Source: Muricea muricata (taxonomy: Eukaryota; Cnidaria; Anthozoa; Malacalcyonacea; Plexauridae). Taken from it: a DNA stretch of 64,000 nucleotides. Under the pieces are notes generated by a model that was not told where the DNA came from, searched no databases, and saw only the letters and a program-made list of their open reading frames with translations. The stretch is taken from the NCBI GenBank assembly GCA_963855995.1, contig OY979724.1, forward strand, positions 1,124,858 to 1,188,857. The letters run 5' to 3'. Both the position numbers and the translations under genes were made by a program. How positions within the stretch are numbered: the first letter of the stretch is position 1; every line of letters begins with the position of its first letter. Of this stretch, positions 23,001 through 54,561 are shown one piece after another.

Positions 23001-26000
23001 CATCAAAGTTGTGACTGTATGGTCCTTTTCGCGTGTGGAATTCTTGAAGAATGATGGCAAAACTGTAAATATCCCCAGACTGTGTTCCTCGTTGAATACC
23101 ATTTGGTGATCTCAACAATTCTGGCGCCCGCCACAACATATCTAGAAGGAATCATAAGATTATTTATTTCCAATATTCAAATTTTCACTTTTTTACATTG
23201 TTCGTACAGGTCAATGAGAGCAAAATTAAAGGATTAAAAAAGTACTGTTAAATAATGCACCAACCAACTGCGACCTAACTGAATTTGAAACACATTTAGA
23301 AGTAATGAACAATGAACAATTTTCAATGTCACAAAATGTCCAGAAACGAAAGCAAGACGGATGCAAGGTCTTTCAAGCACTTCTTTATAAATTCAAAAAC
23401 TTTTAAGGTCTTGAATTTTTGCTTCCAAATTCAAGGGTACTTGAGTACATTCAAGTTTTGTACGTACCGTTTTTTCATCGACTAAATGACTTAAGTTCAG
23501 AGTTGCAAAAAGCGTTCATCCTTCCGCCGGGCAAAATATCAAAGTTTACAAACCTTCCTCAAAATGTTGTAAAGTTGGGCTTTCCAAACAGAAGATAAGA
23601 ATAATGCTTGATCACTATTTTTTCAGAACGAAGGCATGATTTCTGGAATAGTGTTTTGTATAGATTATGTAGTTTGTTGACATGAATGAAACCTTTCTCA
23701 CAGACCGCCCATTTGGCTAATTATCCTCACGGGTAATACCCGCATAACAGTGGCTTTTTTGCAACTCTGCTTAAGTTTTTACCCTCTCCCAAATATACCA
23801 GTACACAGAGATAGTCCGTACCTCTAAATCTCGCGTGCTCGCAACTATATGGCTTGACTTGTTTTGATTTGAAGGTTGGTAATCCATAATCTGTGATCTT
23901 CAGTTGCCAACGACTGTCCACCAAACAGTTACTAGATTTCAGATTGCCGTGAACTTTTATGTCTGAACTGTGCAAGAACGTCATGCCCTGAAAATAAAAT
24001 GACGATAAATATTGAAGATACCGGAATTACGTGAGCTATGTTCTTTTCATAGTTTAAGGTGGCTCGATAGTCTAACTCATAGCACATAATACTTTTTTCG
24101 CCATAAAATCTTTTATGGTGCGCGTGTAAAGCTTAGTTCAAGTCATTGCATAGCTCTACTGGTTGTCTTCATAATTGGAAAAGTGTTACACTCCTACCGT
24201 TCGTATGTCCAGAGATATTGCTGTCATAGGTAAGGTGTGGAGTTTATGCAAATGAAATTATAATTAGAATCGAGTTCCAACAAGAAACGTGATTTCTATG
24301 TTCAGACAAACTTTGAAGAAATTCCTTTTTAAATACAGCAAACAGTGCTATAGGGCTGTGCAAAGACCCAAAATGAAGCTCAAGCATTCACTACAAAACA
24401 TTTAATCGTAGAGACATAAAATTTCTAATGAATTCCGACTATCGAGGCACCTTAATCCAGTAAGGATCATTTCTTATTGACCCAGTGTTACCACAGGAAG
24501 AACCTATACTACACTAACTTAACTTATACTTGCTAGCTCTATCAGTTATAAACTGTTCTTCTTAGAGGTCCAGTACGGATCATCTCTTTTTGATCCAGTG
24601 TTACTACAGGAGGGAACCTAAACTAAACTAACTTTATTTATACTGGATAACTCTATCAGTTCTAAATTGTTCTTCCTAGAGGTCAAGTAAGGATCATCTC
24701 TTATTGATCAAGGGTTACAACAGTGGGAAACCTAAACTATCTTTATATATACTGGACAGCTTTATCTGCTCTAAACTGTTCTTCCGAGACATCCACAAGG
24801 AATCAACTCTTATCGAACGAAGAGAAACTATTACAGAAGAAAACCTAAACCAAGCGCTATTTCGCCGCGATAGATTTTAGGCAAATTTAAATTAACCCAC
24901 CTTTGCAATATCATAAACTAAGGACATAATAAACATGTGGTCCAGATTAACATCTTCGTTCAACAAAATATCCTACAATAAAAATAATAAAACGAAAGCG
25001 GTACTTTATTGTGTTTCCATGTGTTGTTATTATCAAGTTATAATTACAGTCGAGGCAATAGAAGCGAAATTATTTGACCAATTCATTTTCTCAAGTTTAG
25101 CAGTTCCTCTCATCAGTTTCTGCGGTGATGCCTCAAATTTTGAAGAAGTTCCTTAAAATGTTCACAACTTCCTGTTTATTGACCATATTGACCAATCAGT
25201 ATGCTCACGAATAAGGTATGGAATCCTGATGGGTCAATAAACAGGAAGTTGTGAACATTTTAAGGAACTTCTTCAAAATTTTGAGGAATTGATCACAATG
25301 CTAAACTTGAGCAAGCGAATTGGTCAAATCTTTTTGGAACACTTCTATTGCCGCGACTGTAAGTTGCTGCTGCTGCAAGCCTGTCACCAACAATCTGTAC
25401 CATATGCAAGATATATATGGCAAGACATAAATAAGAATAAATAAATATAGATATATATTACACTAATAAGTTCCTTGTATGTTTGCATGGTGAATATCAA
25501 ATTTAAATATAATTTTGTGGAAACACCACGTAAGTTTATTATCGCAGAGCTTTCGATCCGTAAGCTCCGATCTTATTATAAGCACTGATGAAGATCCGAG
25601 CATACGAATCGAAAGCTTTGCGATCATAAACTTACGTGGTGTTTCGGACCACAAAATTATATTTACAAAATTTCCACTCACCTGCAGACTTCCTTTGGGA
25701 CAGTAACCTGTGATGATACAGATGTTCCCAGGCTCTACGCATGCTCCAATGAAAGGATTAAGATTCTCGTGTCGTACTTCCCGAAGCTAAAACAACGAGA
25801 TGAAACATTTCATGAGAAGAACACCTCAGCAATGGACCATTTCCCAATTAAACAAACTTTTAAATTCGAAAACAGTTTTAGCACAGTTGGAAAGAGCTTC
25901 CTAAATTTAGTGAAATTGTGAAGTTTGGTTGTAAAATATTGTAAAATGTAGAAAGTACAGTAATTTAAAATTTGCGAATTTTGTATACTTTTGTATTACG

Positions 26001-29000
26001 CGAGAAAAAGCGTTACCACATTTCCACATAGTGGTAACGCTTTTCCGTCCGTAATACGAAAGTATACAAAATTCGCAAACTTTACAGGACTATATTTTCC
26101 TCGTTTTACAATATTTTGCAACCAAACTTCACAGTTTCACTAAGTTTAGGAAGCTCTTTCCAATTGTGCTAAAATTGTTTTCAAATTTAAAAGTTTGTGT
26201 AATTGGGGAATGGTCCAACGTGCTCGCACAGAACACAGCCAAAATTTCAACAGACTTGTTGCAACTTGATGAAATTGACAAATCTGTTTCCACTTGTTAA
26301 CAACGGTAATATTGTAGGGCCACTCAAGAGAAGTGTGTGTGTGTGTCCGCGCATGTCTCATTACGCATTACGCATGTTCACTGAACTGACTGGTCACAGC
26401 GAGCAAACTACATAAAAATGCTGGGTGAGCCTGCTGTCCATTCACTATAGATTGCGGTTCCAGGTTCAACGCGCCTTACCAAATTTAGTTCTTTTAATAC
26501 AGTTCTGGTCAAATCGACGTTTTTCTTCGAGAGCTTCTTAACTGCAACATAGTTACCCTACACATAAATTAGAAAAATACTCTCACTACTCATATTCTCT
26601 ATATACATATGTATTATTACATCGAATATTGCCGATTAGTATAAATTTCCAGGTGACTATTGATCTTCCTGCATGCTGATTTGCCAAGATTCGCTGTCCC
26701 TGAAGCAATAGTTACAAGCCAGTGGCTATAGCTTCTAGCTTTTTTATACAGTAATAAGAAGTGAATAATAAAGTTGTTTAGAAAATTTCCGAATTATAAA
26801 ATTCTTAAAAAGTTGCGTTGATTATTATTTGTAAACACCTGGAAATTTATATTAAAACAATTACTCCCCTCAGGCTAGGTCATTAAAAGCCATTATAGGC
26901 TTGTAATCACCTCGCCTTTGGCGATTAATTGTAAAATATCTCAACAAGGTAAATTCTATCAAAGAATTGACACTGTAAATTTAAGCGCTCTCTAAAAAGA
27001 ATCGGATCATCCTGGGAACGTACAGTTTAAGATCGCAATTTTTGCAGAAAAATAATAACTTCCAAAATTAACTCTGTTAATCAATTTTCCGTGCGTAATA
27101 CAAAAATATACAAAATTTGCAATCTTCACAGGCTTACATTGTCCACATTTTACAACGTTTCGCAACCAAACTTTTCAATTTTACTAATTTTAGGATGCTC
27201 TTCAATGCTGTGGTAATAAATTTTCCTATTTAAACTTTTTTCAAAATTTTGCCCATAATGCAATCGGTCCATTACTTTGTTATTTTATTGTCAAACCCAG
27301 GTTCCCAGAAAGAGGAAAACGTTTTTCGAGCTCAGTTAAAAGAACATCGCTCACCTTAAAAAGTCCAACTGTTGTGTATTTTACTGTTGTAGGATCGTCA
27401 TCACAATTGTTCAGCAACGTGTCTGTTGGCTCATAGTCTCGTGGCTAGATATTAAGATATTAGTCACAGTTAATCAAACGATTCAGCTACACGCAAAAAC
27501 AACAATAAATTGCTGCTACGAGTAGCTTTATACAAAAGTATATTTTTGTATAAAGCATGGTCCACACTTGCAGCCCAGAATCGGGAATGACTTGTTCAGG
27601 CCGATGTGATTGAGTGAATTCTGTACAATTGCAAAAGCCATCTAACATTTGTCCTATACTTTAACGTGTTCACATATTTATTCACATAAGTGAGAAGGAG
27701 AAAATCTCCCATAATATTTCTCACCTTTCCCTGCTCACTCGAACTTGAATGATTGTCTTGCATGAAAGATCCGAGGACCTAAAATAAGAAAGCAAATGGC
27801 TGAGCAACGTTGCCAGACTTGTCAATCGTTTTAGAAGAAATGCAGAAAGGAAATCTGTGCATCTATAAACGCTTACTCCACTTTCGATGGATACTTGCGA
27901 GTTACGACGGGCTTCAAATTGAATTTCGGCATAATCGACCTTCCACAACAAACTGTGAAGTTCCTTTTCCATTTTATATTGTCTAGATAGATATGAAAAT
28001 AACGCGTACTCGATTCAGAAAGCATACACCATATAACACCACCAACATATTTGAGGCAATTATGGGCAAGTTCAAAATCATTACCACCCCCCCCCCCCCT
28101 CCCTCCTTTCCTCTTCTGGCACCATTTCTACCGACAGTGTTCAGGTGAGTTTACGATATTTCATTCTAGTTTAGTTTCACTAGTTTACCTATGGACCATT
28201 TTCCAATTAGACAAACTTTTAAATTCGAAAACAATTTTAGCACAATTGAAAAGAGCGTCCTAAATTTAGTGAAATTGTCAAGTTTGGTTGCAAAATATTG
28301 TAAAATGTAGAAAATATAGTCCTGTAAAGTTTGCGAATTTTGTATACTTTTGTATTACGAACAGAAAAGCGTTGCCACTATGTGGGAATGTGGCAGCGCT
28401 TTTTCCCGCGTAATACAAAAGTATACAAAATTCGCACACTTCACATTACTATATCTTCGACATTTTACAATATTCTACAACCAAACTTGATAATTACACT
28501 AAATTTAGGACGCTCTTTCCAACTGTGCTAAAATTGTTTTCGAATTTAAAGGTTTGTCTAATTGGGGAATGGTCCATTACTTCGGGAGGGAAAGGCTTGT
28601 TGTCAACTGTACCATACTGTAACGCAAGGGCAGTGGGAATAAGCATGCCCGACGAATCAACCAACCTCATACCTGTATATGTTGTAGAGTAAGAGCAACA
28701 GCAACAGAGCGAGAATACCAGAAACACTAGCGATGATCTTTGTAATATCTTGAACAAAAAATATCTCATTTTATATTGTTGAAAACTGTAAAAGTGATAT
28801 TTGGGACAAACAAGGAACTTGTAAAAATATACCCAACCACAAAACTTTTGAAAGAAACGAAAAGAAACTAGACCATAAAGGAACTGGACCATAAAGGTCA
28901 GGCATGTAGTGAAATCTTATTCACGGTAAAACTTTGGATATAACAGGAGTATCTGAGATGATCAGGCTCAGTGACTGGCCTTATATGAAACAAAAGTCGT

Positions 29001-30057
29001 CGTGGTTTATTCTTAAGAAAACAAATTTCTATAGTTTATTGTCGTTCATTGACGTCATCCCAATAGGCACACTTTTGCGTCCCCCAATCAACACACCCTT
29101 GCACCCCCCCCCCAATCAGCACACTTGTGCATCCACCCTAATCAGCACACCTTTGCGTCCCCCCCCCAATCAGCACACCTTTGCGCCCCCCCCCCCAATC
29201 AGCACACTCTTACGTCCACCCCAATCAGCACACTCTTGCATCACCCCAATCAATACACGTTTGCGTTCCCCCCCCCCCCAATCAACACACCTTTGCGTCA
29301 TCCCAATCAGCACACCCTTGCGTGCCCCCAAATCAGCACACCTTTGCGTCCCCCTTAATCAGCACACCCTTGCGTGCCCCCAAATCAGCACACCTTTGCG
29401 TCATTCCAATCAGCACACCCTTGCGCCCCCTCCCCCCCCAAAAAAAAATCTAAGACTGACCTATGGTCAAACTAACAGGCCTTGACTATACTGCATGTCT
29501 CAGGGTGGTATTTATCGAGGTATGAACTCCCCCCTCCCCAATGTTACATAAGTGAACATACTGTCAGATTTCGTTCGTTTCTTGCAAAGCTCCCCGGCAA
29601 AGCCACATTTGGGAGTGTCAGGTGGGATGCCAGTTCGTCCATCGTACCACGTCAATTTCTTTTTAAAAACATGATAAATCTGTTCTATCCGTTCACTACC
29701 ATTCTTTTTCTTCAGCCAAAATTCTCCGAACTTTCTCATAACTACAAATAAACAGTGTCTGAATGGCGATAGCAACAAGTTTATCGATATATATATATAT
29801 ATATATAGACAATGAAATAGACTTTGGTTACTTCATAAAGTTTTATTCACAACAAATCTGTTTCGTATGACAAGCAATGCTTGCCACACTCGTCAGGTGA
29901 TGATCGCGTGACGAGTGTGACAAGCATTGCTTGTCATACGAAACAGATTTGTTGTGAATAAAACTTTATGAAGTAACCAAAGTCTATTTCATTGTCTATT
30001 CCGCTCTACTTCGGTATTGAGCACTTTCTTCATATATATGGTTTTATTTTTATTCCT

Positions 30058-30117
<60 letters not shown>

Positions 30118-33100
30118 CAAAGTAAAAGATTTGTGAAAATCGACATGTGTTTTATCTCATATATAGACTCTAGTCACGGCTATGATTTCCTTTGTGTTTT
30201 TCTCATGAATTATTAATGAGGTTTAGAAATATATATATAACATTCAACGAAGGGAGGTAAACTGGCTACTAGCAAAGATCAAGCTTCTCAGAATCGCAGC
30301 CCAAAGGAGTGACTTACCACGGCAAGGATTTTCAGGAAGAAATGGCACACAATTTGTTTTCTCCTTTGTACCATTGACGTACTCCAGATGCAGTAGAGTC
30401 ATATTAAACATCACATCCGCCTGGTCATCAAAAGCCATTTGAAAACCGAATACACCTAGAGTCAAAATCGTACATACATTAATTAGTGCACTGGAAAGTT
30501 TGTCTTTCAAGTTATCCTAACCAGCCTTCGAATTACAAGCCACGGGGTTACATCACTTACTGTCGAAAGTGTGTCCTTTTAAAGCATTAATGATATTGCT
30601 TCCATTCGTCTCTAGATTATTTGCCAAAGTTTCATTCAGAGCATATGCATATTGCAATATACCATCATACAGATGTGCTCCTTCGATAGGCACCTGAAAA
30701 GGGAGAGAAGGGAAAGAAAAAACCCCGAATTATCAAAGAGTGAAAAACGATTGACAGAAGATGTCATTTCCCACACTATACAACATTTCGTGATCAAACT
30801 GTTCCCAACGTTCTTTCTAGCTTTGGTCACAGTATAACGAATAAACAGTAGGGCCATGCGCTCAGCAATGCAACACATCCGCTTATTTTTATGCACTTGA
30901 CTGGCTAAGAGCAACCCGTTTAGCGTTTCTATCGGCCAGAAAAGGCAATTGACTGGCAAGAGCCTGCATAATGAAGGTGCCTAATGTGACATCTTCTATT
31001 CTGTGCTTTGGTGATTGATTTTTTTTTCATCAAATAGATTGTAAATATTGCACCTTACCTTGGTTGTGTTTTTTTGGAAGACGCAATGACAATTACTTTC
31101 ATCTAAAAATAAACGAGTATTCAGTTTCAAGGAACTGAAACATGGAGAAGGTACAGGAGGGGACTGGCTTTATTTCTGACGCTCTAGCTCCCCTAATTGA
31201 TTAATGTGAAACAAATTCGTCTCCAACGAAAGTCGAGGGGTTTTTTCCACCAGGGGAAGAAAATATACGAGTTTTCACGTAATGTTCACGGGCCAAACAA
31301 AAATCAAACGAGCCAACGTGAAAGGGTTATTTGGTGTAGTTGAATAATTTTACACTATACTTACTGCATTCTTTACCAGAGGCGTTTTTCCACAGGCAGC
31401 CTGTATAAGCGTCTGTTTCGAACGGTAACTCGTGGCTTTTTTCTCGAACTTTAGCAGTAAAATTCAAATACTTCGGTTCAATTTCACCCGAGAGACCTGT
31501 GATTGGCCTAACTTCCAGGAGCAGCAACGCAGCAAAACTGCTCATGATCTCAAACATGTACTTGTCTCCATGGTAATGACTGAAAAACCACTTCATTGGA
31601 CTCTTTGACGAATGGAAAAATATTTAGATGCCTATGTATACTAGAGAGATGTCTGTATCAGAGAGAAATGTCTGTATTAGAAAGACGTGGGTATTAGAGA
31701 GGTGTCTGCATTAGAGAGATGTCTGCCTTAGAGAGATGTCTGCCTAGAGAGATGTCTATATTGGAAAAATGTCTGCATTAGACAGATGTCTGTATTAGAA
31801 AGATGTCCGTGTTAGAGGGATGTCTGTATTAGAAAGAAGAGATGTCTGTATTAGAGAAATGTCCACTTTCGATGGATATCGTTATCCGAACTTGGTACGA
31901 CCGGTTTCTCGTATTAACAAGACGCCCATTAAGGGCATAGTCTCACCTTGTGTACTAACAGGTGAGGGTTAAGATGGAATCCGATGAAGACGTATTCTCC
32001 CGTCTGAACCAGACCTTCCTCATAGGCTTGCAGCATATACTCAATGGTTATTTCTCGTTCCATGAGGAGAATCACGACTAATAATAAGCAAATATACAAT
32101 TATATTTTGGCGGGCTTGTGAATAATTTTGCGGGCTAAAGCGAAGGTGCTTACACGCTGCAATTCGTCTCACAACTCGCCATGCAATTCTACTCATAAGA
32201 GTGGTGAAGAAGACATCAACAAATTGTAATGAAGTCGCATATTTGCTAAACTTACATCACTAAGGAGTACTGCGTTGCAAAAGATGCAAGAAAAAATGCA
32301 GCATGACAGTGCCTTGGGCAAATTAGCGGGCTTGAAAAAAGGCTTCGGGCAAGAAATTAGATTGATAGCTCAACGCCTACAGCGGTGTTCATGCGAGTTA
32401 AGACAACGAATTTCTAGTTGTTGTTTACGCTTACTCCTTGCTTGTTGCTTGATTCTTTTCACAGAAGCACGCAAATTGTCGAATTGGTTTTGGAAAAACT
32501 TGTCGGCATCAAATGCTACTTTATCTTCGAACAAAATAGTGATGTTGTTCTTTGGCGAATCGAGTATCTTCGAGACGTATTCGCGAATCATAACCCATTT
32601 ACTCATATCCTGATGGACAAGTGCAACCCTTTTCCAATTGAACTGTTTCAACGTTGCAAGCAGAGGAGGAATAAGATGGACATTGACGATGGAGGTTCGG
32701 GCAACTGTTTTATAAATCTTCTTGTTAGCTGGTGGCGCATCTGGACATTTCTAGACGCAACAAAAATTTGATTTGATTTGATTTGACTTTATTGACACTC
32801 CCCTGAAGGGGCTTTTCAGCGACAGTGATAGCTACGTGTATATACATATAGAACAATTAATATGGTTACTATTTTGTCCTAAATATACATATGAATTAAA
32901 ATAGAATTATTTGAACGATAGAAAATACAACACACTTACAACACAACGATAGAAAATACAACAGACTCGACAACAGTCACATAGATATCAACATCATCAA
33001 CAACAACAGCCAAAACAACAACAGCAAAACATGCACCTAACATCTTAACTTTCTAGAAATTGCTTTAGGAGTTCTCGTTTCAGTTTTGAAGTTTGGAAGA

Positions 33101-33819
33101 GATTTGTAGAGTTTAATCAGTGGCTATAATATTGGTGGACACAAGGAGGGTAGGGAGGACCCTACGGGGGGGAAGATGTTAGGAGGGGGGAGGACGTTAG
33201 GAGGGGTAGGGAGGACACTAGGAGAGAGAAGTTAAAAGAGGAGGGGAGTGGGAGGAAAATAAGGGCAATTCTGTGCAGGATTCCATAGAGATTTATTGAT
33301 AAAGAGTGCAAATTTATATCCACAAGCTTGCTGCAAGTTGTTTCCACAAGTTTGCAAATCTGCAAATGACAAGTAGAGTAGCAAGCCTAATTGTAACAAA
33401 GCAACATTGCCTGATGACATAAGCAACATTTTTGCAACTTGTTGGCAAGTTACAACGAGCTGTGGTATTTTTGGCTGTGTACTTGTTCGTTCAACTTACA
33501 AACGACATGACCGGTTTGTCAAAAGCTACTGCAGTCCTGGATGTGTACGCACAGCTCTTTACAGGTCCAAAGAAAACATCGACGCCGTTATTTAGTTGCC
33601 AGATTTGCTGTTTAATTGCTAAGGACTCCTGACACATCGTATCATTCCAAACCCAAGTCAGATTGAAATTGTAGTTCATCGTTTTTAATTTCTCCATTGC
33701 AACTGGTATCGCCTGTGCGTACAACTGGGCAGAATGGGATTGTTCAAGGCATGGATTGCCCTTGTTGAAGGGCACGAGAAAGCCCAACTTGTACGTTTTT
33801 TTAACATGTGGATCAGTGC
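20027..33819 (-). CDS. Receptor A: membrane guanylate cyclase, natriuretic-peptide-receptor type
   Basis: This is a single-pass receptor that converts GTP to cGMP on peptide-ligand binding. Twenty-four coding exons, 5' to 3': 33500-33819, 32435-32750, 31947-32077, 31365-31602, 31059-31102, 30561-30693, 30318-30455, 29562-29741, 28673-28748 (membrane), 27877-27982, 27725-27778, 27355-27444, 26480-26557, 25682-25786, 24901-24972, 23822-23987, 22992-23141, 22602-22785, 22096-22236, 21807-21930, 21648-21716, 20849-21122, 20448-20539 and 20027-20332. Phases close for about 1194 residues plus a missing signal-peptide exon. Domains in order: ANF-type ligand-binding domain (about 1-500), membrane helix ([18 protein letters not shown]), kinase-homology domain, coiled dimerisation segment, cyclase domain and a ~100-residue arginine/serine-rich C-tail. 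Cyclase residues look complete. The first coding exon and 5' UTR should lie between 33.8 and 41.8 kb. Confidence 0.92.
20554..20745. repeat. CAACTTGCAACAAGT-type repeat, intronic
   Basis: Short motifs such as ACAAGTTGT, CAACTTG and AAGTTGCA recur in both orientations over about 190 bases in an intron of receptor A. Related sequence occurs at 33300-33480 and 33930-33990, and briefly at 26240-26275. It is probably a small palindromic repeat family. Confidence 0.55.
20849..21930 (-). other. Guanylate cyclase catalytic domain of receptor A
   Basis: Exons 21807-21930, 21648-21716 and 20849-21122 encode the class III cyclase core, finished by 20448-20539. The first metal-binding aspartate is in [10 protein letters not shown] and the second in [12 protein letters not shown]. 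Guanine-selecting residues are E of VETIGDA and C of PRYCLFGD, as in guanylate (not adenylate) cyclases. The transition-state pair N and R lies in NTASRLES. No active-site substitution is visible, so an active homodimeric enzyme is predicted. Confidence 0.9.
21186..21417. mobile_element. Palindromic MITE with TTAA-containing ends
   Basis: CTTAAGCAAGCGACGTTTTT at 21186 is matched by AAAAACGTCGCTTGCTTAAG ending at 21417. The arms stay almost perfectly complementary for about 100 bases (GGCAGCCGGAAGT, ATGGCGAATGATGGCGTCAG). The TTAA at both ends suggests a TTAA-targeting DNA transposon group such as piggyBac or Kolobok, which is inference. It is intronic in receptor A. Confidence 0.8.
22305..22550. 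repeat. ~115-bp minisatellite, locus 1 (two units)
   Basis: The unit reads ACTTTATTTATACTGGATAG, then CTCTATCAGTTCTAAACTGT, TCTTCCTAGAGGTCCAGTAA, GGATCATCTCTTATTGATCC and AGTGTTACTACAGGAGGAAA, ending in CCTAAACTAAACTAA. An internal hairpin GGATCA...TGATCC is conserved. This locus lies immediately upstream (in transcript sense) of the dimerisation exon of receptor A, the same relative position as in gene B. Confidence 0.9.
22810..22970. repeat. G-rich simple sequence in intron
   Basis: GGGAGGGAGGGGGAGGG (about 22829-22846) and a G-tract near 22948 occur within this receptor A intron. Both are purine/G-rich enough for quadruplex formation. No coding content is present. Confidence 0.4.
23142..23821. 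other. Large intron of receptor A, no feature
   Basis: This ~680-bp intron separates the exons carrying TDYG and APELL. It is A+T-rich and I see no repeat family or exon in it. Confidence 0.5.
24054..24455. mobile_element. ~400-bp element with TAAGGTGGCTCGATAGTC ends
   Basis: TAAGGTGGCTCGATAGTC at the left and GACTATCGAGGCACCTTAA at the right are inverted ends. The interior is non-coding. A related end with GACTATCGAGCCACCTTAAG occurs near 6838, and a partial copy lies at 10362-10570. It is intronic in receptor A and directly abuts the minisatellite at 24455. Confidence 0.7.
24456..24850. repeat. ~115-bp minisatellite, locus 2 (3-4 units)
   Basis: This is the same unit as locus 1, with more divergence between copies. 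It lies in the intron before exon 24901-24972 of receptor A, inside the kinase-homology block that is deleted in gene B. Confidence 0.9.
25046..25360. mobile_element. MITE with ACAGTCG-type inverted ends
   Basis: ACAGTCGAGGCAATAGAAG at the left is matched by CTTCTATTGCCGCGACTGT at the right. An inner perfect block (AAGAAGTTCCTTAAAATGTT, then CACAACTTCCTGTTTATTGA) is also inverted. The whole ~315-bp unit folds back. It is intronic in receptor A. Confidence 0.8.
25490..25672. mobile_element. Foldback element, intronic
   Basis: CACCACGTAAGTTTATTATCGC at the left pairs with GCGATCATAAACTTACGTGGTG at the right, and AGCTTTCGATCCGTA pairs with TACGAATCGAAAGCT. The loop carries TTATAAGCACTGATGAAGATC. 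It ends about ten bases from exon 25682-25786 of receptor A. Confidence 0.75.
25832..26218. mobile_element. Foldback element family FB, copy 2
   Basis: It begins ATGGACCATTTCCCAATTA and ends AATTGGGGAATGGTCCA. A central inverted pair (GTAATACAAAAGTATACAAAATTCGC-type, broken as GTATACTTTTGTATTACG and CGTAATACGAAAGTATAC) flanks GCGTTACCAC. It is about 385 bp and intronic in receptor A. Confidence 0.8.
27080..27275. mobile_element. Foldback family FB, half copy
   Basis: This has only the right arm of the family: CGTAATACAAAAATATAC, TTTCGCAACCAAACTTTTCA, GGATGCTCTTCAATGCTGTG and ending ATGCAATCGGTCCATT. It is closest to the copy in gene B at 47018-47424. It is intronic in receptor A. Confidence 0.65.
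28190..28577. mobile_element. Foldback element family FB, copy 3
   Basis: It begins TATGGACCATTTTCCAATTA and ends AATTGGGGAATGGTCCAT, with the same central GTATACTTTTGTATTACG inverted pair. It lies between exon 27877-27982 and the membrane exon of receptor A. Confidence 0.8.
28673..28748 (-). other. Transmembrane exon of receptor A
   Basis: The exon begins at phase 1 and ends at phase 2 (ACAG|gtatga). It encodes [20 protein letters not shown] followed by YNIYR, one hydrophobic membrane helix ending in a positive stop-transfer residue. The following exon (27877-27982) starts [13 protein letters not shown], the juxtamembrane segment. The matching exon in gene B is 45170-45251. Confidence 0.92.
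29070..29445. repeat. ~27-bp C-rich minisatellite, about 14 units
   Basis: The unit is AATCAGCACACCTTTGCGTC followed by a variable C-run. It repeats about 14 times with 25-31 bp spacing because C-tract length varies. All three forward frames are open over parts of it, giving spurious proline/histidine-rich open frames. It is intronic in receptor A, between the last extracellular exon and the membrane exon. Confidence 0.9.
29806..29999. mobile_element. Near-perfect ~90-bp palindrome in TA-repeat context
   Basis: ATAGACAATGAAATAGACTT starts the left arm and AAGTCTATTTCATTGTCTAT ends the right arm. The whole arm, including TTTCGTATGACAAGCAATGC, is complementary with a loop near GGTGATGATCGC. 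A TA dinucleotide run lies directly before it and another at about 30062-30114. The ends are TA-rich, so a TA-targeting insertion is plausible. It is intronic in receptor A. Confidence 0.85.
30062..30114. repeat. TA dinucleotide microsatellite
   Basis: An uninterrupted TA/AT run of about 50 bases, intronic in receptor A. A shorter run lies at 29787-29806. Confidence 0.95.
31640..31870. repeat. ~19-bp AGAGATGTCTGTATTAG minisatellite (gene A)
   Basis: Variants of AGAGAGATGTCTGTATTAGA repeat about 12 times. The same array lies at the same intronic position of gene B (47830-48060), between the exons encoding ILLMERE and [12 protein letters not shown], so it predates the receptor duplication. Confidence 0.9.
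32762..33135 (-). mobile_element. LINE 3'-end fragment
   Basis: A GATTT pentamer run (32766-32787) followed by GACTTTATTGACACTCCCCT and GAAGGGGCTTTTCAGC resembles the inverted 3' end of a CR1/L2-type LINE: a short tandem tail, then 3' UTR. Near 33060-33110 the minus strand could encode the last residues of an ORF2. No larger coding part remains. It is intronic in receptor A. Confidence 0.45.
33138..33258. repeat. GGGAGG-type purine-rich repeat
   Basis: Repeats of GTAGGGAGGAC, GGAGGGGGGAGGAC and similar units cover about 120 bases. Several G-runs of four or more could form quadruplexes. It is intronic in receptor A. Confidence 0.75.
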
Positions 33820-35365: not shown

Positions 35366-37087
35366 ACATTATGGACTTACTTCGCAACAGAGGAGCGAAC
35401 AAAACTATCAGACCAAAATGCCACAGGAGAGCCATTACTCTTTAGTAATTCGGTCGAAATACGCGAAGCATTTGATTCTGATGAACTTATAATCACAATT
35501 CTGTCTCATCGTTGTGTTATATGGGATTTCAGCGACCATATACGTGCAGTGTCACATCTAGAGAGGATTAGACGAAAAGTCAAATTAAACTGTCAGTAGA
35601 ATGTTTGAAATCAAGCCCAGCTCAACGAGAGTTCTCGAGAGCTGGTGGGGGGCACAATGAAAGCTAACAGAATAAGTGTTTTGTCTATGTTTTTATTGCA
35701 ATCAAATACATCAATGTGTTGGAAAAGTTGAGAGCGAGGGCCTTTATTGCACGTTGGTATCAGTACTACCAACTTCCCGACGACAGATCTTTTCTCAACG
35801 AACTTCCTTTGTATTTCTGCGGTATTAACCGATCTAGTGATGTCACTTACGTCTCATTAGTAATCTCTACATGGTTTGTAGATTGTAATAATCACAACCA
35901 GGTAGCAGGTGCCGAATTCGAAGAACGGCAGCTGTCAGTGCTCTTCATTATAAAGCATTTGTCATTTGTCATGAATTATGCACGTTTTCGACTCAAATCT
36001 ATTATTGGTAAGATCCCAAGACAAAATACAAGAGCAACGCAAAGCCTGGAAGGAGACATTACGCGTGCAATATAAACGACAAGAGAACGTAAGAAAGTTG
36101 AGAAAATTCTTGCACGTCGACAAAAGAGTTTGAACAAAAGGAGGATGTGAATACAAGAAATTTTCAAGTAACGCTACGGTACAAGTGACTCGTTTGTTTG
36201 CGAAATATCAGGCATTTACGTTTGAAGACAGGCCATCAAATTACGAACAATAAGTGGCTGCTTCACAAGTTGTGTTTCTGTATTCGTCGTATTGGAAGAC
36301 AGAGATACATGGATAGCCAAACACGCTAGCTTTGTTACGCGTGTTCAGAGATTTTGGAGCGAAGGTAGGCAAAGAGGTCAACCCTTTATCCAGGTTGCTT
36401 CCTTTTACACCACGACGGGATGACGACGGCAAATCTCGCAACGGCAAAATGTTTGTTTTAACATAGTGGCCCAGAAATCGGTGGTTTTTAACCTTAAATT
36501 GAATCTTGTATTTCTTGTACATGATATTCCTTTTACAGCTGTCAAAATCTCGCGGAATTGTTTTTTTCTCGTGCGATAGTCGGTCAGTCTCGCGCGACGT
36601 TCGTGTGGTATTATCGGTTTAAAGTAAAATATATATTAAACAATTATTGAATGAAGTCGAGCAGATAACGCAAACCTCTGCCTTAATAATTCCTCATATC
36701 CTGCAAGAACCGAATTCAATAATTGTTTTATTATTTTTTGAAAATATTTTAAACTTAGTTTAAACGTTTGCTTTGTAAGTAAGAAGACACAAGCTGCTAA
36801 TAATGGAACAGCATGAAATTGTTCGGAAACTTTAATAAGCCAATCAGACTACGAAAACTCTTCTACGAAATTCTTAAAACAATTGTCAGATTACAAGGTC
36901 ACTCAATATACGACGAAATGAGTCATGTCATATATTTGTTTTCAATATACGATGAAATGACTCATAACGTCGTATATTAATTTTCAACCCCAAATTTGGG
37001 CAACTACCAAGCGGATATGACGATTTTACCTTTAGCTCTCAACCAATCAAAACTCCTCAAATATTTTCAATAAATAATAATATGAAA

Positions 37088-40999: not shown

Positions 41000-41850
41000 C
41001 GGGGGTTTAAGAATATCATGCAACCACATAAAACCGTACATAATTTGTGGCAAGTTTGTTTGCTCGCATCCCAACCACATCGTCACATATTTACAATCGC
41101 TCATTTCTCACTTTCTAACGAGAAATTCTCGCTGAAGTCTATAGATGGCGATGCGTGCTTACTCTGGGCCCGTCTTCGGCATAAAACGACACTTTCAAGA
41201 GCTACATATAAACGGACTCAAAACATGTTCTCTACACCCCGCTACAAGTAGCATTTGGCAAAATAAAACACAACGCAGCACTTAGGGCAAAAATATTGCG
41301 TTGTTTATTTCGCCAATTGCAACATACAAATGTTCTAATCGGTCGGGATATTTTGATGCTTTTTTCAGCCGTTAATCGGGAAGATAAATGCGTTTATCAG
41401 AGGGCGAAAAGAACTACAAATTGCAACTAATGAGTTACCCTGCAAGACAGAAGATTCCAAACACATAATTACAACTACAAGATTTCGTGCTCGTTAATTT
41501 CGCTTTTTAAACAATCGTCAAAAAAGTTACGAACCCACGGGCGATGTTCGAATAATACAGAGCGTCTAACGGGCTGATATACTTGAAAAGGAAAGAGAAA
41601 CGGAGCACAAGTTACATACCTTTTACATACAACAACAAACACAGGCGGGCAAAAAATCGCGAGCGATATCAACACCAGTGAAAAGCACCGCAAATTCGCC
41701 GTACGAATCACGCGATGTCTCTCGTGTTCGTAAACTAAGCAGTTAGCCAAACGAGGCGACAGATGAACCAGAAATCTGCCAACAAAATCCTTAAAACATC
41801 TGCTATTCGCTTTCAAAAAACCCAAGACTTTATATCCGAAGAAACCTATT
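41000..41850 (-). promoter_or_regulatory. Candidate promoter and 5' UTR exon of receptor A
   Basis: This block is homologous to 53150-53715 upstream of gene B. Shared segments include AAAACGAC-TTTCAAGAGC, GAAATTCTCGCT/GAAATGCTCGCT and the exon end before a conserved donor (AAAAG|gtatgt at 41620 here; AGAG|gtacgt at 53553 in B). A TATA-like GATATAAAG lies at 41828-41836 on the minus strand, at roughly the place of TATATA in B. I infer a non-coding first exon of about 41620-41800. The open frame 41475-41876 crosses the donor and is not taken as coding. Confidence 0.45.
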
Positions 41851-43836: not shown

Positions 43837-44696
43837 TGACACTAATGTAACAAATATTTTTCAATATTGTTGACAAACATGCATGGATAGCAAATTAAAG
43901 TTGAAAACAATATCTTCCAGATTTGTAACTCGGAACGAAGTAGTATAAGTAGCAGACCTTGTGTGCAAACGTTGAAAGATCCTGACGTGCAATTAAATGC
44001 AATTTCCAATGAAACGACCCCCCGACACAACAGGTATAGCCGAATTTGGCAGTTTTGGCAAAACAGCCAACTGTGAGGACCCGAGAAAGCCAAAGTAGGG
44101 ATCTATCTTCGATTGATTTAAACATCCATGTTTATTAAAAACGTTAAATGCTCCTCTAAACTGACAATATTTGAAAGGGCTACGTACAGTAAAATTACGC
44201 GTTATTTTAAAGCTATGTACATCCATGGGTTGACTCAAAATTCATGGAAAATTTATTTGCATGAATCTTGCTTCGATCGATTGCAGTTTTAAGAGAAAGG
44301 GGGGGGGGGGGGTATTGAAACACACAAACTCAAATAGTAGCTTACACCAGCTTTGAAGAACTGGCCAACCATGTCGTTTCCGAGCGCTCTTCGCATGAAG
44401 ATTCCCATTAGTGTTTGTCCAGAAACGTGAATACTAAATCTGCTATTTACATAAATTTGTTAATTGAACTGTGTTTAATTAGTTTGGTCTTTAAAATGAA
44501 AAATTTATGAAGTCCAAAAGACATCATATTTATGTTACAACGACATATAATTACATGTACATCATATCGCTCAAAATTGTCCTTCGTATTGTAATAGCAA
44601 TTAAACCTTTTACCCTATTAACACTAATTTATATACCCTCCACGGTATCTAAGCTATCCTAATGCATGCATCGTTTTCACATTTACAATTAGCGAA
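43837..44696. other. Region between the 3' end of gene B and the IL repeat; no gene
   Basis: Overlapping minus-strand open frames at 43842-44238 share no recognised domain. A G-homopolymer of about 12 bases lies at 44300-44312. An AATAAA-type polyadenylation signal for gene B could lie in its A+T-rich part, but no single site stands out. Confidence 0.4.
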
Positions 44697-44817
44697 TCAA
44701 ACATCAAGCGACATCTGACTAGCTGGAGTTGAACAAAACTGATCATAATCCTCATTTTTATGTTTCTTCCGCGGTGTCCGACGTATAGAGACCAACTTGT
44801 CTAGAATATTTGTGTTC
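44697..44817 (-). other. Tail exon of receptor B, remnant of the dimerisation exon
   Basis: The exon opens G-AAC-ACA-AAT-ATT-CTA-GAC, read as NTNILDKL. Receptor A's exon at 22096-22236 opens G-AAG-ACA-AAT-ATC-CTT-GAC, read as KTNILDNM, with the same phase. Similarity fades after about eight codons. Both exons are preceded, about 50-75 bases upstream, by the same ~115-bp minisatellite. The membrane exon also ends in phase 2, so the new junction is in frame. The exon then reads SIRRTPRKKHKNEDYDQF and stops at TGA (44697-44699). Confidence 0.8.
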
Positions 44818-47800
44818 CTGCAACGATGAGCGTCGAATATTACTGTTAATGTGAAAACGAACATATTTTATTTATAATGGATAGCTCTTATCAGTTCTAA
44901 AATGCTCTTTCTAGAGGTTCCGTAAGGATCATCTGTTATTGACCCAGTGTTACTATAGCGGGAAGAAACCTAAACTAAACTAACTTTATTTATAGTGGAA
45001 TAAATCGATAGCTCAATCAGTTCTAAACTGTTCTTGCTAGTGGCCAAATAAGGATCATCTCTTATTGATCCAGTGTTACTACAGGAGGAAACCTAAACTA
45101 AACTAAACTAACTTTATTTATACTGGATAGCTCTATCTGGCTTCTTCTTCACACCAACAAACCTCGTACCTGTATATAATGTAGAAGACCAGTACAACTA
45201 CCAACAGACCAAGAATACCACAAACGCTTCCTAAAATCACAGTGCTATTGTCTGAAAGAAAGAAGTGTTGTCTTAGTGTGTTTTGTTGGCTACTGTCAAA
45301 ACTGGAGCTCAAGGCAACAGTTTATTCGTCTTGGGACTTATTTATTCATCAAATGGTTGTAGAATACCAGTCGTTTTTTATCGAAAGCACGAATTTAATA
45401 CAGCTTGCATGAATGGGATACGGAGAGGTGTCGTGTTCTCAGGGACGTTCTACAGTGATCTCTAAGCAAATTCACGAGCTTACGTCGTTTCATGGCTTGA
45501 AAAACAGACGTTATACACTTCACGTGGTGTGGGAATTTCTCACACCTGTGAAACTCAAATTACTCATACAGTATTACAGTATTTTCCTTTGGGCACAGAT
45601 CAAGTAAGGTCTAGTTTCCAATTTGGTCGTAGCTGTCGTAGCAAATTCATTCTCGACGATATGATATAGCCTGGATCTACCTTTTCTTTTTTCGGTCGTA
45701 TTCAAATTATTCGTAAAAAGTGCAGATTATATCAGTCATATTGATATATTCACGACATTGACGACTTAATGGAAACTAGGCCTAAGAGAATCTCCATATT
45801 TCTATCGAGGTATGAACGGCCTCCTAAAATGTAATAAATGTTAACATACCGTCAGATTCCTTTGTATTCGGGCAAAGTTCGTTGGAAAAGCCACATTTGG
45901 GAGTGTCCGGCGGGACACCCGTTCTTCCATTGTACCAAGTTAACTTCTTTTTCACAGCATGATAAACTTGTTCATCAATATCCTTTGCATTCCACCAAAA
46001 CTCTCCGATCGACCTCATAACTACAAGTAGACAAGTCTGAATGATATTAACAAATTTATCGCTACCTAACAAGAGCTTTCGGCAAAGACACATCGATGTA
46101 AGGTTAGTAGACAACTTATCAAAGCTCAAGCCTCTAAGAATCGCAGCCCAAAGGAGTGACTTACCACGGCAAGGCTCTTCAGGAAGAAATGGCTCACAAT
46201 TTGTTTTCTCTTTTGTACCATTGACGTACTCTTGATGCAGTAGAGTCACATTAAACACCACGTCCACCTGGTCATCAAAACCCATTTGAAAACCGAATAC
46301 ACCTAGGATCAGAATCGAACACACATTAATTAGTGCACTGGAAAGTTTGTCTTTCGAGTTATCTTAACCAGCCTTCGAATTACCAGCCACGGGATTAGAT
46401 CACTTACTGTCGAAAGCGTGTCCTTTTAAAGCATTAATGATATTGTCGCCATTCGGCTCCAAATTATTTGCCAAAGTTTCATTCAGAGCATATGCATACT
46501 GCATTATGGCATGATACAGGTGTGCCGCTTCGAGAGGCACCTAATTGGGAAGAAAAATGATTCAAGATATCATAAATGAGAAGGGCAGAAAGGAAAAGGC
46601 GTAATTTATTAAGGAATGAAGAATGATCAATATAAGATGTCATCGTCGTTTGAATGATAGATAAATTACATCCGCATTGCAGCCTAATTTTTGATCAAGG
46701 CAACATATAGGAAATTCCAGAAAAGAACATAATGAGATTAGTGAAATTGTAAAATTTGCTAGCAAAATTTTGTAATTATACTAATTCCGCGATATTTTTT
46801 CTGCCGCTGTTGTTTTTTTACTTGTTTTTCATTAAACATGTTACAATTTAGTGTCTATTGTTCAATGTAAAATTGCAACTTACCTTGAAGGTGCTTCTCT
46901 TGAAAACGCATTCACATGAAGTTTCACCTAAAAATAAACGAATATTCAATTCAAGGAATTAAAATATGGGCATGGTTGGAATGCGGGTGGAGGTGGAGTA
47001 CTTTATCCCTGATATCAATGGACCGATTGCATTATGGACAAAATTTTGAAAAAAGTTGAAATAGGAAAATTTATTACCACAGCATTGAAGAGCATCCTAA
47101 AATTAGTAAAATTGCAAAGTTTGGTTGTGAAACGTTGTAAAACGTGGAAAATGTTTGCCTGTGAAAATTGCAAATTTTGTATATTTTTGTGTTCCGCACC
47201 GAAAATTGATACCAACATCGAGAGAACGGTATCAATTTTCAGTGCGTAATACAAAAGAGTACAAAATTCGCAAACTTTGCAGGGCTATATTTTCCTCATT
47301 TTACAACATTTCGCAACCAAACTTTGCAATTTTACTAATTTTAGGATGCTCTTCAACGCTGTGGTATTGAATTTTCCCATTTGAAAGTTTTTCAAAATTT
47401 TGTCCATAATGCAATCGGTCCATTCACTTCTTAGTAACTTAGCAGGTGTTCACATGCCCCCCCCCCCCGCTTTTGAATCGAACAAAAATCAAACGAGCCA
47501 ACGTGAAAAGGTTCTTTGGTGTAGTTCAATAGTTTTACAATATACTTACTGCATCCTTTATCAGAGCCGTTTTTCCACAGGCAGCCTATGTAAGCGTCTG
47601 TTTTGAACGGTAACTCGTGGCTTTTTTCTCGAACTTTAGCAGTAAAATTCAAATACTTCGGTTCAATTTCACCCGAGGGACCTGTGATTGGCCTAACTTG
47701 CAGGAGCAACAATGCAGCGAAACTGTTCATGATCTTAATCATGTTCTTGTCTCCATGGTAATGACTGAAATACCACTTCATTGGATTCTTTGACAAAAGG

Positions 47801-50489
47801 AAAAGTATTTAGATGCCTATGTATACTAGAGAGATGTCTGTATCAGAGAGAAATGTCTGTTTTAAAGAGACGTCTGTACCAGATAGATGTCTATATTCGA
47901 AAGATATCTGCATTAGAGAGTTGTCTGTATTAGAAAGGTGTCTGCATTAGAGAGATGTCCGTGTTAGAGGGATGTTTGTATTAGAGAGATGTCTGTATTA
48001 GAGAGAAGAGATGTCTGTATTAGAAAGAAGAAATGTCTGTATTGGAAAGATGTCCACTTTCGATGGATATCATTATCCGAACTTGGTACGACCGGTTTTC
48101 CGTATTAACAAGACGTCCATTAAGGGCACAGTCTCACCTTGTGTGGTAACAGGTGAGGATCAAGATGGAATCCGATGAAGACGTAATCTCCAGTCTGAAC
48201 CAGACCTTCCTCATAGGCTTGCAGCATATACTCAATGGTTATTTCTTGTTCCATGAGGAGAATCACGACTAATAATAAGAAAATATACAATTATAATATT
48301 TTGGTGGGCATTGTGAATAATTTTGCGGGCTAGAGCGAAGGTGATCCCACGCTGGAATTCGTTTCACAACTTGCCGTGCAATTCTACTCGTAAGAGTTGT
48401 GAAGAAGACATCAACAAATTGTAATGAAGTCGCGCATTTGCTAAATTTACATCTCTCAGGAGTACGTACTGGGTTGCAAAAGATGCATGAAAAAATGCAG
48501 CATGACAGTGCCTTGGGCAAATTAGCGGGCTTAAAAAAGGCTTCGGGCAAGAAATTAGATTGCTAGCTCAACGCCTACAGCGGTGTTCATGCGAGTTAAG
48601 ACAACGAATTTCTAATTGTTGTTTACACTTACTTCTTGCTTGTTGCTTAATTCTTTTCACAGAAGCATGCAAATTGTGGAATTTGTTCATGAAAAAGTTG
48701 TGGGCATCAAATGCCACTGTATCTTCGAACAAAATGGTGATATTGTTCTTCGGCGAATTGAGTATCTTCGAGACGTATTCGCGAATCATAACCCATTTAT
48801 CCAAATCCTGATAGACAAGTGCAACCTTTTTCCAATCAAAATGTTTTAGCGTTGCGATAAGAGGTCGCACCACGTAAAAATTAGTTAACGAGGTTCGTGC
48901 CACTGTTTTGTAAATTTTCCTGTCGGCAAGAAAGGTGTCGTCACATTTCTAAAAACATAGCAAAATTCCATGAGTTTTGCATCGTAATTAACCTTCTTTT
49001 AAAACGTCGACCTCATCAGCGTTTGACTGATTTTCATGAGGGGCGAATCACTGGTGAATAAGAACAGCAATGACATGAGATGATAATTCCGGTCAAATGC
49101 AAGCGCATACGTAATGCTCGTTTGACTTTGGTCCCAACAGTAGAGTGTATTTTAATGCTACTTCAGGGCGTGCATGCTGAGTAATGTATGTGCGTGGGAG
49201 GGGGGGGGGAAGCTGTGATGCCCTTAACTTTGGAAAGCTCATGGGTAAAATGTCGTGAAAACGAAACAGTATGTCCCGGAAAAATTTTCACTGTACCAAA
49301 ATAAGCAATAAAATAAGATCTGTGTGAAATACAGCTAAAAGAATTGATGAAATGTTTGAAGTTGCCAATGTTGCCTAACCTCCCTGCATATCAGCTGCTT
49401 TCGTTAAGACACGACAGAAAAACAAAGGTTTTAATTTTTGCCTAAAAATTCAAAGATACACTTCAAATGTAGCTATTTCTCTTTTTGTGCAATTGTGCTC
49501 AGTTCACTACAGAGAATGGTGCACATGTCGAGTGATGATTAAACAGTGATTATTCTCATTTTACCCAAATCACATGATGGCTGTCGCATGATATAATAAA
49601 GTTGGGAGCGAAAATGAGAAAAATCATCGTTTAAATAAAAAAGCATGCAATATTTCTGCGATGCGTTGATGAATGTTCTTCAAATTAAAAGCAATGCTAG
49701 TACATAACAAAATACCGTAATAATATTCGACTTTGAAAGAATCTTTATGAAGAATGATTCGATTTTGTTAGAGTGACACATTTCCCGAGACACATTGTAA
49801 TCGACGTCTGTACAGGAACACTATAAAAAAAAATGCCGCTAGCTTCTACCCTCGACTTACAAATGACATGACAGGTTTGTTAAATGCTACAGCAGTCTTC
49901 AACGTGTGCTTGCAGTTCTTTGCAGGTCCAACGAAAGCATCGACGCCGTTATGTAGTTGCCAGATTTGCTGTTGAATAGCCAAGGATTCATCATTACACA
50001 TCGTATCATTCCAAACCCAAGTCAGATTGAAGTTGTAGTTCATCGTTTTAAATTTCTCCATTGCAACTGGAATCGCCTGTGCGTACAACCGAGCAGATTG
50101 TTCAACGCATGGATTGCCCTTGTTGAAGGGCACGAGAAAGCCCAACTTGTAAGTTGTTTTAACATTGGAACCTGAAACTGCATGAGAGACAAACACTAAG
50201 CCTCAGTATGGATACACACGAAACTCATGCTCGCGTGTGATGTTTTCAGCATGCTCGTGGCGTTTCAACCATATAGAGATTATAAAAGAATGGAGGGGAC
50301 ATCGTAGGATAAACTCAGTAACGAAATATGTTTTAAAAACAATAAGACCGATTTAGGCTTTCTGTTTTAAAAATACCTTGCAATTCTTTAATTAATCGTG
50401 CACTCTATGTTTCACTTACCTTCCCATAACGAAGTGCAGAAAAGTACAAAGCTACAACTCCACCAAAGACCCACGGGATGAGGCAGCAT
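44697..50489 (-). CDS. Receptor B: short-tailed natriuretic-peptide-receptor paralogue lacking kinase and cyclase domains
   Basis: Eleven coding exons, 5' to 3': 50420-50489 (ATG, signal peptide), 49861-50171, 48633-48948, 48138-48268, 47550-47787, 46884-46927, 46408-46540, 46165-46302, 45850-46020, 45170-45251 (membrane) and 44697-44817 (tail and stop). Splice phases close to 584 residues. The signal peptide is MLPHPVGLWWSCSFVLFCTS. The extracellular domain matches receptor A exon for exon, with six internal exons identical in length. The membrane segment is VILGSVCGILGLLVVVLVFY. The cytoplasmic tail is R plus 39 residues with a basic cluster RRTPRKKHK. Vertebrate NPR-C has the same plan (541 residues in human, 37-residue tail), so a ligand-clearance, decoy or G-protein-coupled role is a reasonable inference. 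Independent origin from gene A is supported by the remnant exon. The frame is intact throughout, arguing against a pseudogene. Confidence 0.85.
44865..45138. repeat. ~115-bp minisatellite, locus 4 (about 2.5 units)
   Basis: This sits in the last intron of gene B, between the tail exon and the membrane exon, and reaches within about 30 bases of the membrane exon donor at 45169. In receptor A the same inter-exon interval contains all the kinase-homology exons. Confidence 0.9.
47018..47424. mobile_element. Foldback element family FB, copy 4
   Basis: It begins AATGGACCGATTGCATTATG and ends CATAATGCAATCGGTCCATT, with a central pair CCGAAAATTGATACC and GGTATCAATTTTCAGTGCG. It is about 400 bp and intronic in gene B. 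The half copy in gene A at 27080-27275 is its closest relative. Confidence 0.85.
47825..48060. repeat. ~19-bp AGAGATGTCTGTATTAG minisatellite (gene B)
   Basis: Same unit and same intron as the array at 31640-31870 in gene A. Copy order differs, showing independent turnover after the duplication. Confidence 0.9.
48985..49060 (-). mobile_element. LINE 3'-end remnant
   Basis: AAAACGTCGACCTCATCAGC and TGATTTTCATGAGGGGCGAA resemble the 3' end of the LINE at 13400-13450 (AACACGCTAACCTCGTCAAC, TGATTTCCACGAGGGGCGTG). It is a short fragment in an intron of gene B. Confidence 0.55.
49062..49860. other. Intron of gene B, no feature
   Basis: A G-run (GGGAGGGGGGGGG near 49198) and A+T-rich sequence only. 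No exon, repeat family or RNA gene recognised. Confidence 0.5.
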
Positions 50490-53149: not shown

Positions 53150-53715
53150 CATTGTTCGATCCCCAACCACACAGGTCCACATTAGCACATCTCTTTCCTT
53201 CTTTAATGACGAGAAATGCTCGCTGGAGTCCGTATCTAAATGTACGTGGATACCCTAGGCTTTTCGGTACAAAACGACATTTTCAAGAGCATCAAACCTA
53301 CTCATGTGAGATCCTCCGTTCCGCTGCAAGAGCCACGCCGCCAAATGAAAACAAAGCAGATTTAGGATCAAAATACGGAGCTTTTGCAACACGGTAATGC
53401 AGCAATATCAACGTATTACGCTGAGTTGTATTCGCGCTGTTCCCACAGGAACATACTTTTGCGGGAGATGCCCTATACTCCATTCGCAATTAAATTATTT
53501 AATGAACTAATGAGTCACACAACGGACCGGTAGAAAGCAACACATTACGTACCTCTTACACACAACAACAAACGCAGGTCAGCGAGAGTCAAGCGATATG
53601 GATAGCAGCTGACAGTACTCGGAACAGATGGCAAACTCAAATTGATAACCGCGCGATTTTACCAGCGACAGCAGTCTGAGGATACACGAAAGCCTCGCTC
53701 AATATATAGCGATTC
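53150..53715 (-). promoter_or_regulatory. Candidate promoter and 5' UTR exon of receptor B
   Basis: Homologous to the block upstream of receptor A (see 41000-41850). The donor AGAG|gtacgt at 53553/53552 would join the acceptor at 50500 (tttttag|AGTGTAAAGAATG), giving a 5' UTR ending eleven bases before the start codon. A TATA-like GCTATATATT lies at 53701-53710 on the minus strand. I infer a non-coding first exon of roughly 53553-53675. Confidence 0.45.
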
Positions 53716-54206
53716 TCCCTACTTAGCTATGCGCATGCTGTTCTACGCATCCCCCATACTTACCCGGAAAATGGAACAATAGTGGTCATCTCTCAAACAG
53801 CCGGAAGGAGATACTTGCACATACATAGGGGCTTCAGAGCTGTTGAAGCGGTTAAAAAAAGAAAATCACAACCGTGAGAAGTGCTTGGATATACCGGTCT
53901 TAATTTGCATAGATTTTTACGCTTCTATTTTGGTAATTATCTGTATACTAACCAACCTAAAATGATCGGACCTTGTGATTGGACCTTTGAAATATTATTG
54001 AATTATTCGTTCTTCAGGAAACAAACTTCTAGTTGCTTGTCTTTTATGTTTAGAGCCAACCACTCAAAATGGTTGTTAATGTTAGTGTATATTGGTTTAC
54101 TGTGTCGTTTTTGTCTCGATTGAGACTATATGTCGAACACTCGAGAAAGTGTTTCATCGGTTATGCGAACACTTCAAATTTCGTCAAAAAATACTCCGCT
54201 GCGTGT
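53716..54206. other. Intergenic DNA upstream of receptor B
   Basis: No recognised feature. The plus-strand open frame 53881-54123 is aromatic-rich and without similarity. Confidence 0.4.
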
Positions 54207-54561
54207 TGTATTTAACAAATAGATTTCATTTTTGCGTACGTCTGTACTGTAATAGATCACAGACGACGTCATAGCGTGTGAAGAACAAAAAAAGTACGCA
54301 CGAGACGCAGTCGAGTGCGTGACTTTTTGTTCTTCACACGCTATGACGTCATCTGTGATCTATTACAGTACAGAAGCACAAAAATGAAATCTATTTGTTT
54401 TATATTATAATAAAGTTGACAAAAATCATGCGAAGAGCCGCGAAATAAATTAGCGAAATTAGATCACGCCATCAGTTGACGTCATCCGTGCGTGTGCACT
54501 TTAATGGCACACAGCTCGCGACCAATGAAAATGCAGAATGAACACGTATTATTATATAATT
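54207..54561. mobile_element. CRE-containing MITE, copy 2
   Basis: Second copy of the element at 37088-37442, with the same ends, the same inner GAACAAAAAAAGT hairpin and TGACGTCA sites near 54343 and 54479 (a third, near 54266, is altered to CGACGTCA). Only scattered substitutions separate the copies, so both are fairly young or were co-duplicated with the receptor promoters. Confidence 0.85.

Follow-up and report, generated by a model that had tools for sequence, protein, structure and literature searches.

The locus described here raises the question of how a receptor gene may lose its whole intracellular enzyme part and still keep an open reading frame, and of what the remaining protein might do. 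The analysed window is a stretch of 64,000 nucleotides of Muricea muricata DNA (1.12–1.19 Mb on a 14.3-Mb contig; genome 453 Mb), in which a full receptor guanylate cyclase gene (A) lies downstream of a short-tailed relative (B). A sequence-only reading of this DNA had proposed that B was made in this animal's own lineage by tandem duplication and truncation.

Organization of the locus

The positions of the features of both genes are presented in Table 1. The layout of the B protein comprises a signal peptide, an ANF-receptor ectodomain, a cysteine hinge, a single membrane-spanning segment and a tail some 40 residues long. Each of the ten introns begins with GT and ends with AG, and once the exons are joined the frame runs without a stop to the TGA ending at 44697. 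The frame is thus intact from signal peptide to stop, as had been claimed, with the 11 exons at their expected places. Pfam analysis identified ANF_receptor alone in gene B (1.2e-28), and ANF_receptor, kinase and Guanylate_cyc in gene A. Alignment to NPR-A revealed the hinge motif PPD.PKCGF.NE before the membrane span of B. The joining of the membrane exon to the tail exon (45170/44817) is a predicted splice; the tail acceptor is the top-scoring AG within 45168–44000, and 72 of the 3515 AGs of the same strand score above it.

The 14 exons that follow the membrane exon of gene A encode a juxtamembrane region, a kinase-homology domain, a linker and a cyclase, and this inner part matches human NPR-A along its full length (2e-182). 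The scan for the signal exon of A returned three rows, two of them overlapping, from which 35435–35381 was picked as the best signal peptide; it is a candidate only, since the same scan missed the known exon 1 of B at its cut-off.

Table 1. Features of genes B and A (window coordinates; dS, synonymous divergence of each B exon from its A counterpart)
Feature	Position	Strand	dS	Description
B 5' non-coding region	53152..53608	minus		two blocks resembling 41678-41060 of A
Gene B	50489-44697	minus		intact 11-exon model, 584 residues
B exon 1	50420..50489	minus		initiator ATG and signal peptide MLPHPVGLWWSCSFVLFCTSLWEG; preceded two codons upstream by an in-frame TAA
B exon 2	49861..50171	minus	0.28	ectodomain
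B exon 3	48633..48948	minus	0.63	ectodomain
B exon 4	48138..48268	minus	0.075	ectodomain, low-divergence patch
B exon 5	47550..47787	minus	0.090	ectodomain, low-divergence patch
B exon 6	46884..46927	minus	0.90	ectodomain
B exon 7	46408..46540	minus	0.29	ectodomain
B exon 8	46165..46302	minus	0.112	ectodomain, low-divergence patch
B exon 9	45850..46020	minus	0.76	juxtamembrane hinge; aligns to NPR-A hinge
B exon 10	45170..45251	minus	1.35	hydrophobic membrane span; donor phase 2
Dispersed repeat	44855..45137	minus		occupies most of the last intron of B
B exon 11 (tail)	44697..44817	minus		39 complete codons and a split codon, then TGA
A 5' non-coding region	41060..41678	minus		matches the 5' region of B
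Candidate A signal-peptide exon	35381..35435	minus		MALLWHFGLIVLFAPLLR; donor phase 1
Gene A	33819-20027 (exons)	minus		full receptor guanylate cyclase, 11 kb downstream of B
A exons 2-10	28673..33819	minus		ectodomain and membrane span
A exons 2-6	33819-33500, 32750-32435, 32077-31947, 31602-31365, 31102-31059	minus
A exons 7-10	30693-30561, 30455-30318, 29741-29562, 28748-28673	minus
A exons 11-18	22602..27982	minus		juxtamembrane and kinase-homology block, eight exons; missing in B
A exon 19	22096..22236	minus		linker (signalling-helix) exon; counterpart of the B tail exon
A exons 20-24	20027..21930	minus		guanylate cyclase domain and C-terminus

Outside the window, a third receptor guanylate cyclase, paralogue C, occurs on the same strand (C9, about 1224100–1213600); its ectodomain is about 32% identical and its kinase-homology and cyclase exons are present. 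The locus is therefore arranged as a tandem array, C-B-A. An exon of a rhomboid-family gene is situated upstream of B (55473–55913, minus; Pfam Rhomboid 8.5e-15), and elsewhere in the window are a frame with SPRY and SOCS-box domains (10764–11249, plus) and frames resembling retrotransposon endonuclease and reverse transcriptase (13547–16227, minus; judged by eye). The sequences at 54168–54559 and 37051–37443 are two copies, 91% alike and with inverted halves (GATCACAGATGACGTCATAGCG...), of what looks like a small inverted-repeat element. The tRNA and Rfam scans returned 0 matches.

Genes A and B share their extracellular and membrane exons

The proteins encoded by A and B are 77% identical. 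Among the comparable exon pairs (exons 2–10), phases are identical in 9/9 and lengths in 6/9, and the three unequal pairs (311/320, 171/180 and 82/76 bases) differ by multiples of three. B retains 12 of the 12 cysteines of A, and the membrane-span exons share just about 50% identity. The 5' blocks of the two genes also match (71% for the block of 83 aligned columns and 66% for that of 237), from which it follows that the duplication took in the 5' region and at least the linker exon. These results agree with two earlier claims: that B repeats the extracellular and membrane exons of A, and that the genes are sisters. The second is supported by the protein identity, the common phases and the alignable introns.

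Loss of the enzyme exons and origin of the tail

A tblastn search of the window with the whole intracellular part of A revealed no exon of the kinase or cyclase domain, either within B or downstream of it. Together with the Pfam result, this upholds the earlier statement that no kinase-homology or cyclase exon lies between the membrane exon and the stop of B. The genome-wide cyclase matches nearest to the window on this contig belong to A (up to 1,146,753) and paralogue C (from 1,214,457), and whole-genome searches placed no B kinase or cyclase exon between A and the next receptor cyclase (79 of 187 candidates were scored with the full-inner-part query). Relics of the 14 post-membrane exons of A were sought in 44696–35440 and none rose above shuffled controls, although old neutral relics could have faded. 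The enzyme exons are absent from B, which has neither the kinase-homology nor the cyclase domain of a receptor guanylate cyclase.

The beginning of the tail exon points to where the tail came from. Directly after its acceptor it reads GAACACAAATATTCTAGACAA, and the linker exon of A opens with GAAGACAAATATCCTTGACAA, both in phase 2; the two match at 18 positions within the first 21 bases and at 23 within the first 30. In a comparison of the tail start with 32 further exon starts from the two genes, the score was 18/21 for the linker exon and 3 to 11 for the other 31. Among 7084 AG sites in the window (both strands) the linker was again the best non-self match, the next reaching 15/21, and it was also the top non-self match for the tail start across all positions. 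The same linker-exon start and phase were found in paralogue C and in a receptor cyclase gene situated at C9:10.68 Mb, and a start of that kind was not seen in eight other receptor- or nucleotide-cyclase loci (L018–L025). The stretch NILDN is common to the B tail, the linker start and human NPR-A. The best local alignment of the tail with the linker-to-end region of A runs exactly from exon start to exon start, but 3 of 60 shuffles reached its score, making this particular test weak.

Since register, phase and motif coincide, we take the tail exon of B to be a remnant of the linker (signalling-helix) exon. It would retain roughly seven codons from the beginning of the signalling helix, as the sequence diverges from that of A after about 29 bases and then stops. 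For the remainder of the tail, no significant similarity to the later exons of A or C was found, and the tail region (44300–44830) is single copy in the genome. The earlier description of an in-frame splice to one 39-residue exon and a TGA therefore stands as to exon and frame, and needs amending in one respect: the exon appears to be the shortened linker exon of a cyclase-family gene and not an unrelated one.

Age of the duplication, probable gene conversion and selection

Synonymous divergence between A and B is strikingly uneven (Table 1): high in exons 3, 6, 9 and 10, low in exons 4, 5 and 8, and between these in exons 2 and 7. The low- and high-dS groups differ at 9/104 and 60/126 synonymous sites, respectively (Fisher 3e-11; the groups were chosen after the values had been seen, and exons 2 and 7 omitted). 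Introns 3-4, 4-5 and 7-8, on the side of the patches, are 94, 86 and 90% identical, compared with 71, 75 and 75% for introns 2-3, 6-7 and 9-10 (gap-tolerant global alignments without a shuffled control). The low-divergence patches extend over exons and introns (B 47787–48268 and 46165–46302; A 31365–32077 and 30318–30455). Because the introns follow the pattern of the exons, protein constraint cannot account for the mosaic, but gene conversion can, and the patches are likely to be the product of conversion over an old duplication. A recent duplication was rejected, since the 77% protein identity is itself a mosaic that includes the strongly diverged exons; the duplication looks older than that value implies.

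Overall dN/dS between A and B is 0.36 (bootstrap 0.28–0.49). Exons 3, 9 and 10, which lie outside the patches, have stayed open at dS 0.63–1.35 with dN/dS of 0.23–0.33. In a neutral simulation of their 190 codons, 3 of 1000 runs remained open at 0.4 substitutions per site, and 9, 22 and 138 of 1000 did so at 0.3, 0.2 and 0.1, respectively. With paralogue C as outgroup (represented by pieces taken from its reading frames and not by a complete gene model), private changes numbered 16 in B and 21 in A over 428 sites. Broken frames and neutral divergence, which mark a pseudogene, were not found in B: its frame is open, its dN/dS is the overall 0.36, and the rates of the two genes are equal. The frame of B has probably been under selection and the gene is likely to be functional, although conversion could have held the frame open for part of its history.

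Proposed origin and role of gene B

A tandem duplication from the 5' region through at least the linker exon would have produced two receptor cyclases, the upstream of which would then have lost exons 11–18. This block has 915 bases, a number divisible by three, and phase 2 on both sides; its removal leaves the frame intact, with the membrane exon meeting the linker exon, which is the present structure of B. Loss of the rest of the linker and of the cyclase as well would have left the 39-residue tail. The ectodomain has probably since been maintained by purifying selection and partly homogenised with A by conversion. Of the proposal that B came from its own tandem duplication and truncation, the duplication and the loss of the inner part can be kept, but not a simple truncation at the 3' end: the kinase-homology block was lost internally, the opening of the linker exon persists in the tail, and the duplication appears to be an old one on which conversion has since acted.

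A repeat-mediated deletion was considered but not demonstrated. The repeat in the last intron of B has relatives in introns of A (24853–24460 and 22546–22306) and between the genes (39036–38418), and it matches the copy before the A linker exon at 85.4% and the intergenic one at 85.0%. In paralogue C a repeat related to it follows the membrane exon, in the opposite orientation.

The simplest role for B would be that of a sink or decoy. Lying in the membrane, the protein would bind the ligand of A and make no cGMP, thereby limiting the signal of A. That B is a receptor cyclase paralogue stripped of its inside and acting as such a signalling-dead sink or decoy is a reading to which we give an even chance. 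A more speculative version, in which the animal built its own clearance-type receptor by dropping a phase-symmetric cassette and ending on the stump of the helix exon, with recurrent conversion matching sink to sensor as the ligand changes, seems rather unlikely.

The main rival is a dominant-negative partnership, in which B would associate with A by way of the ectodomain and the membrane span, giving a mixed dimer unable to form the two-chain cyclase site. The ectodomains, similar as they are and with every cysteine in common, would allow this, and receptor cyclases function as dimers, with heterodimers reported in C. elegans (PMC5225109). However, the membrane spans have diverged considerably, and deletion of the signalling helix from human receptor cyclases is reported to yield inactive monomers (PMC1592074), so that the few helix codons left in B argue mildly against strong inner pairing with A. 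We consider this partnership possible, but doubtful. That B is instead a copy in decay, whose frame remains open by chance or has been renewed by conversion from A, would agree with the low-divergence patches and with the loss of the kinase and cyclase parts. It is made improbable by the constraint on exons 3, 9 and 10, by A/B length differences that are all multiples of three, by the similar relative rates and by the strong tail acceptor.

Two further readings have little in their favour. A basic run in the tail (RRTPRKKHK) and the length of the tail resemble NPR-C, and B might on that ground be a receptor of the NPR-C type with additional signalling through Gi; but basic residues just inside the membrane are commonplace, the tail appears to derive from a linker exon, and the hinge fits NPR-A, with NPR-C the weaker match, which makes Gi signalling very improbable. 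Slimmer still is the chance that the B ectodomain serves as an alternative front end for the A cyclase, with the tail exon as an alternative ending. B lies upstream of A in the same orientation, their 5' regions are related, and the phase 2 donor of the B membrane exon would join exon 11 of A (phase 2) in frame. Such a transcript would nevertheless have to skip 17 kb, past nine exons and the tail exon, whose acceptor is the strongest AG near B.

Comparison with known systems

Vertebrate NPR-C clears its ligand and signals via Gi, its tail carrying the Gi motif. B resembles this receptor (NPR3) in its ANF-receptor ectodomain, one membrane span and tail of about 40 residues without a kinase-homology or cyclase domain, so that the NPR-C plan attributed to it earlier is confirmed in each part. 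It differs from NPR-C in belonging to the family of its neighbour A, with 77% identity to that gene, a linker-exon tail and an NPR-A-type hinge. Among solved structures, B matched NPR-A best (E 7.3e-6), by way of the juxtamembrane hinge; GABA-B subunit 2 ranked next (4.8e-5), by way of the binding domain, and NPR-C further down (0.0068). Judged by homology to A and by the linker-derived tail, without a tree including NPR-C, B is NPR-C-like by anatomy but apparently not by descent from the bilaterian NPR-C lineage. NPR-C is described as having the same plan and no enzyme activity, and natriuretic peptides as reported from vertebrates only (PMC6878697).

Another ANF-receptor gene of the same genome (C7:11032820–11025750; L029, L030) reaches about 34% identity to B in the best of its exons; no cyclase match was found on C7 and no membrane span in the stretch read. 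It is possibly a further enzyme-less receptor, or a decayed one.

With receptor guanylate cyclases such as A and human NPR-A, B shares the ectodomain, hinge and membrane span, the exon phases of A, and a tail that starts with the linker exon; unlike them, it has no kinase-homology domain, complete signalling helix or cyclase. The coral Euphyllia ancora offers a comparable case of multi-copy receptor cyclases in a non-bilaterian: its six (GC-A to GC-F), one of them located on sperm flagella, are described as chosen for containing all three domains (PMC6787079), a criterion that a B-like gene would presumably fail. Searches of titles and abstracts in an open-access library revealed no description of a short-tailed partner gene of this kind outside vertebrates.

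The origin of enzyme-less receptors can seldom be seen. At this locus the parent gene and its stripped copy adjoin and the exon record is intact, so that the pair shows which exons were lost, why the frame survived and from where the tail was taken. If expressed, the pair would demonstrate that receptor cyclases can repeatedly give rise to clearance or decoy receptors, and it would offer a simple system for studying how a receptor without signalling output stays matched to the ligand of its active counterpart.

Dominant-negative splice forms of GC-B occur in vertebrates, and a dominant-negative NPR-B rat model has reportedly been made. These forms resemble B in that a catalytically dead receptor can restrain an intact one; they are, however, mutants or splice forms of one gene, whereas B is a separate gene.
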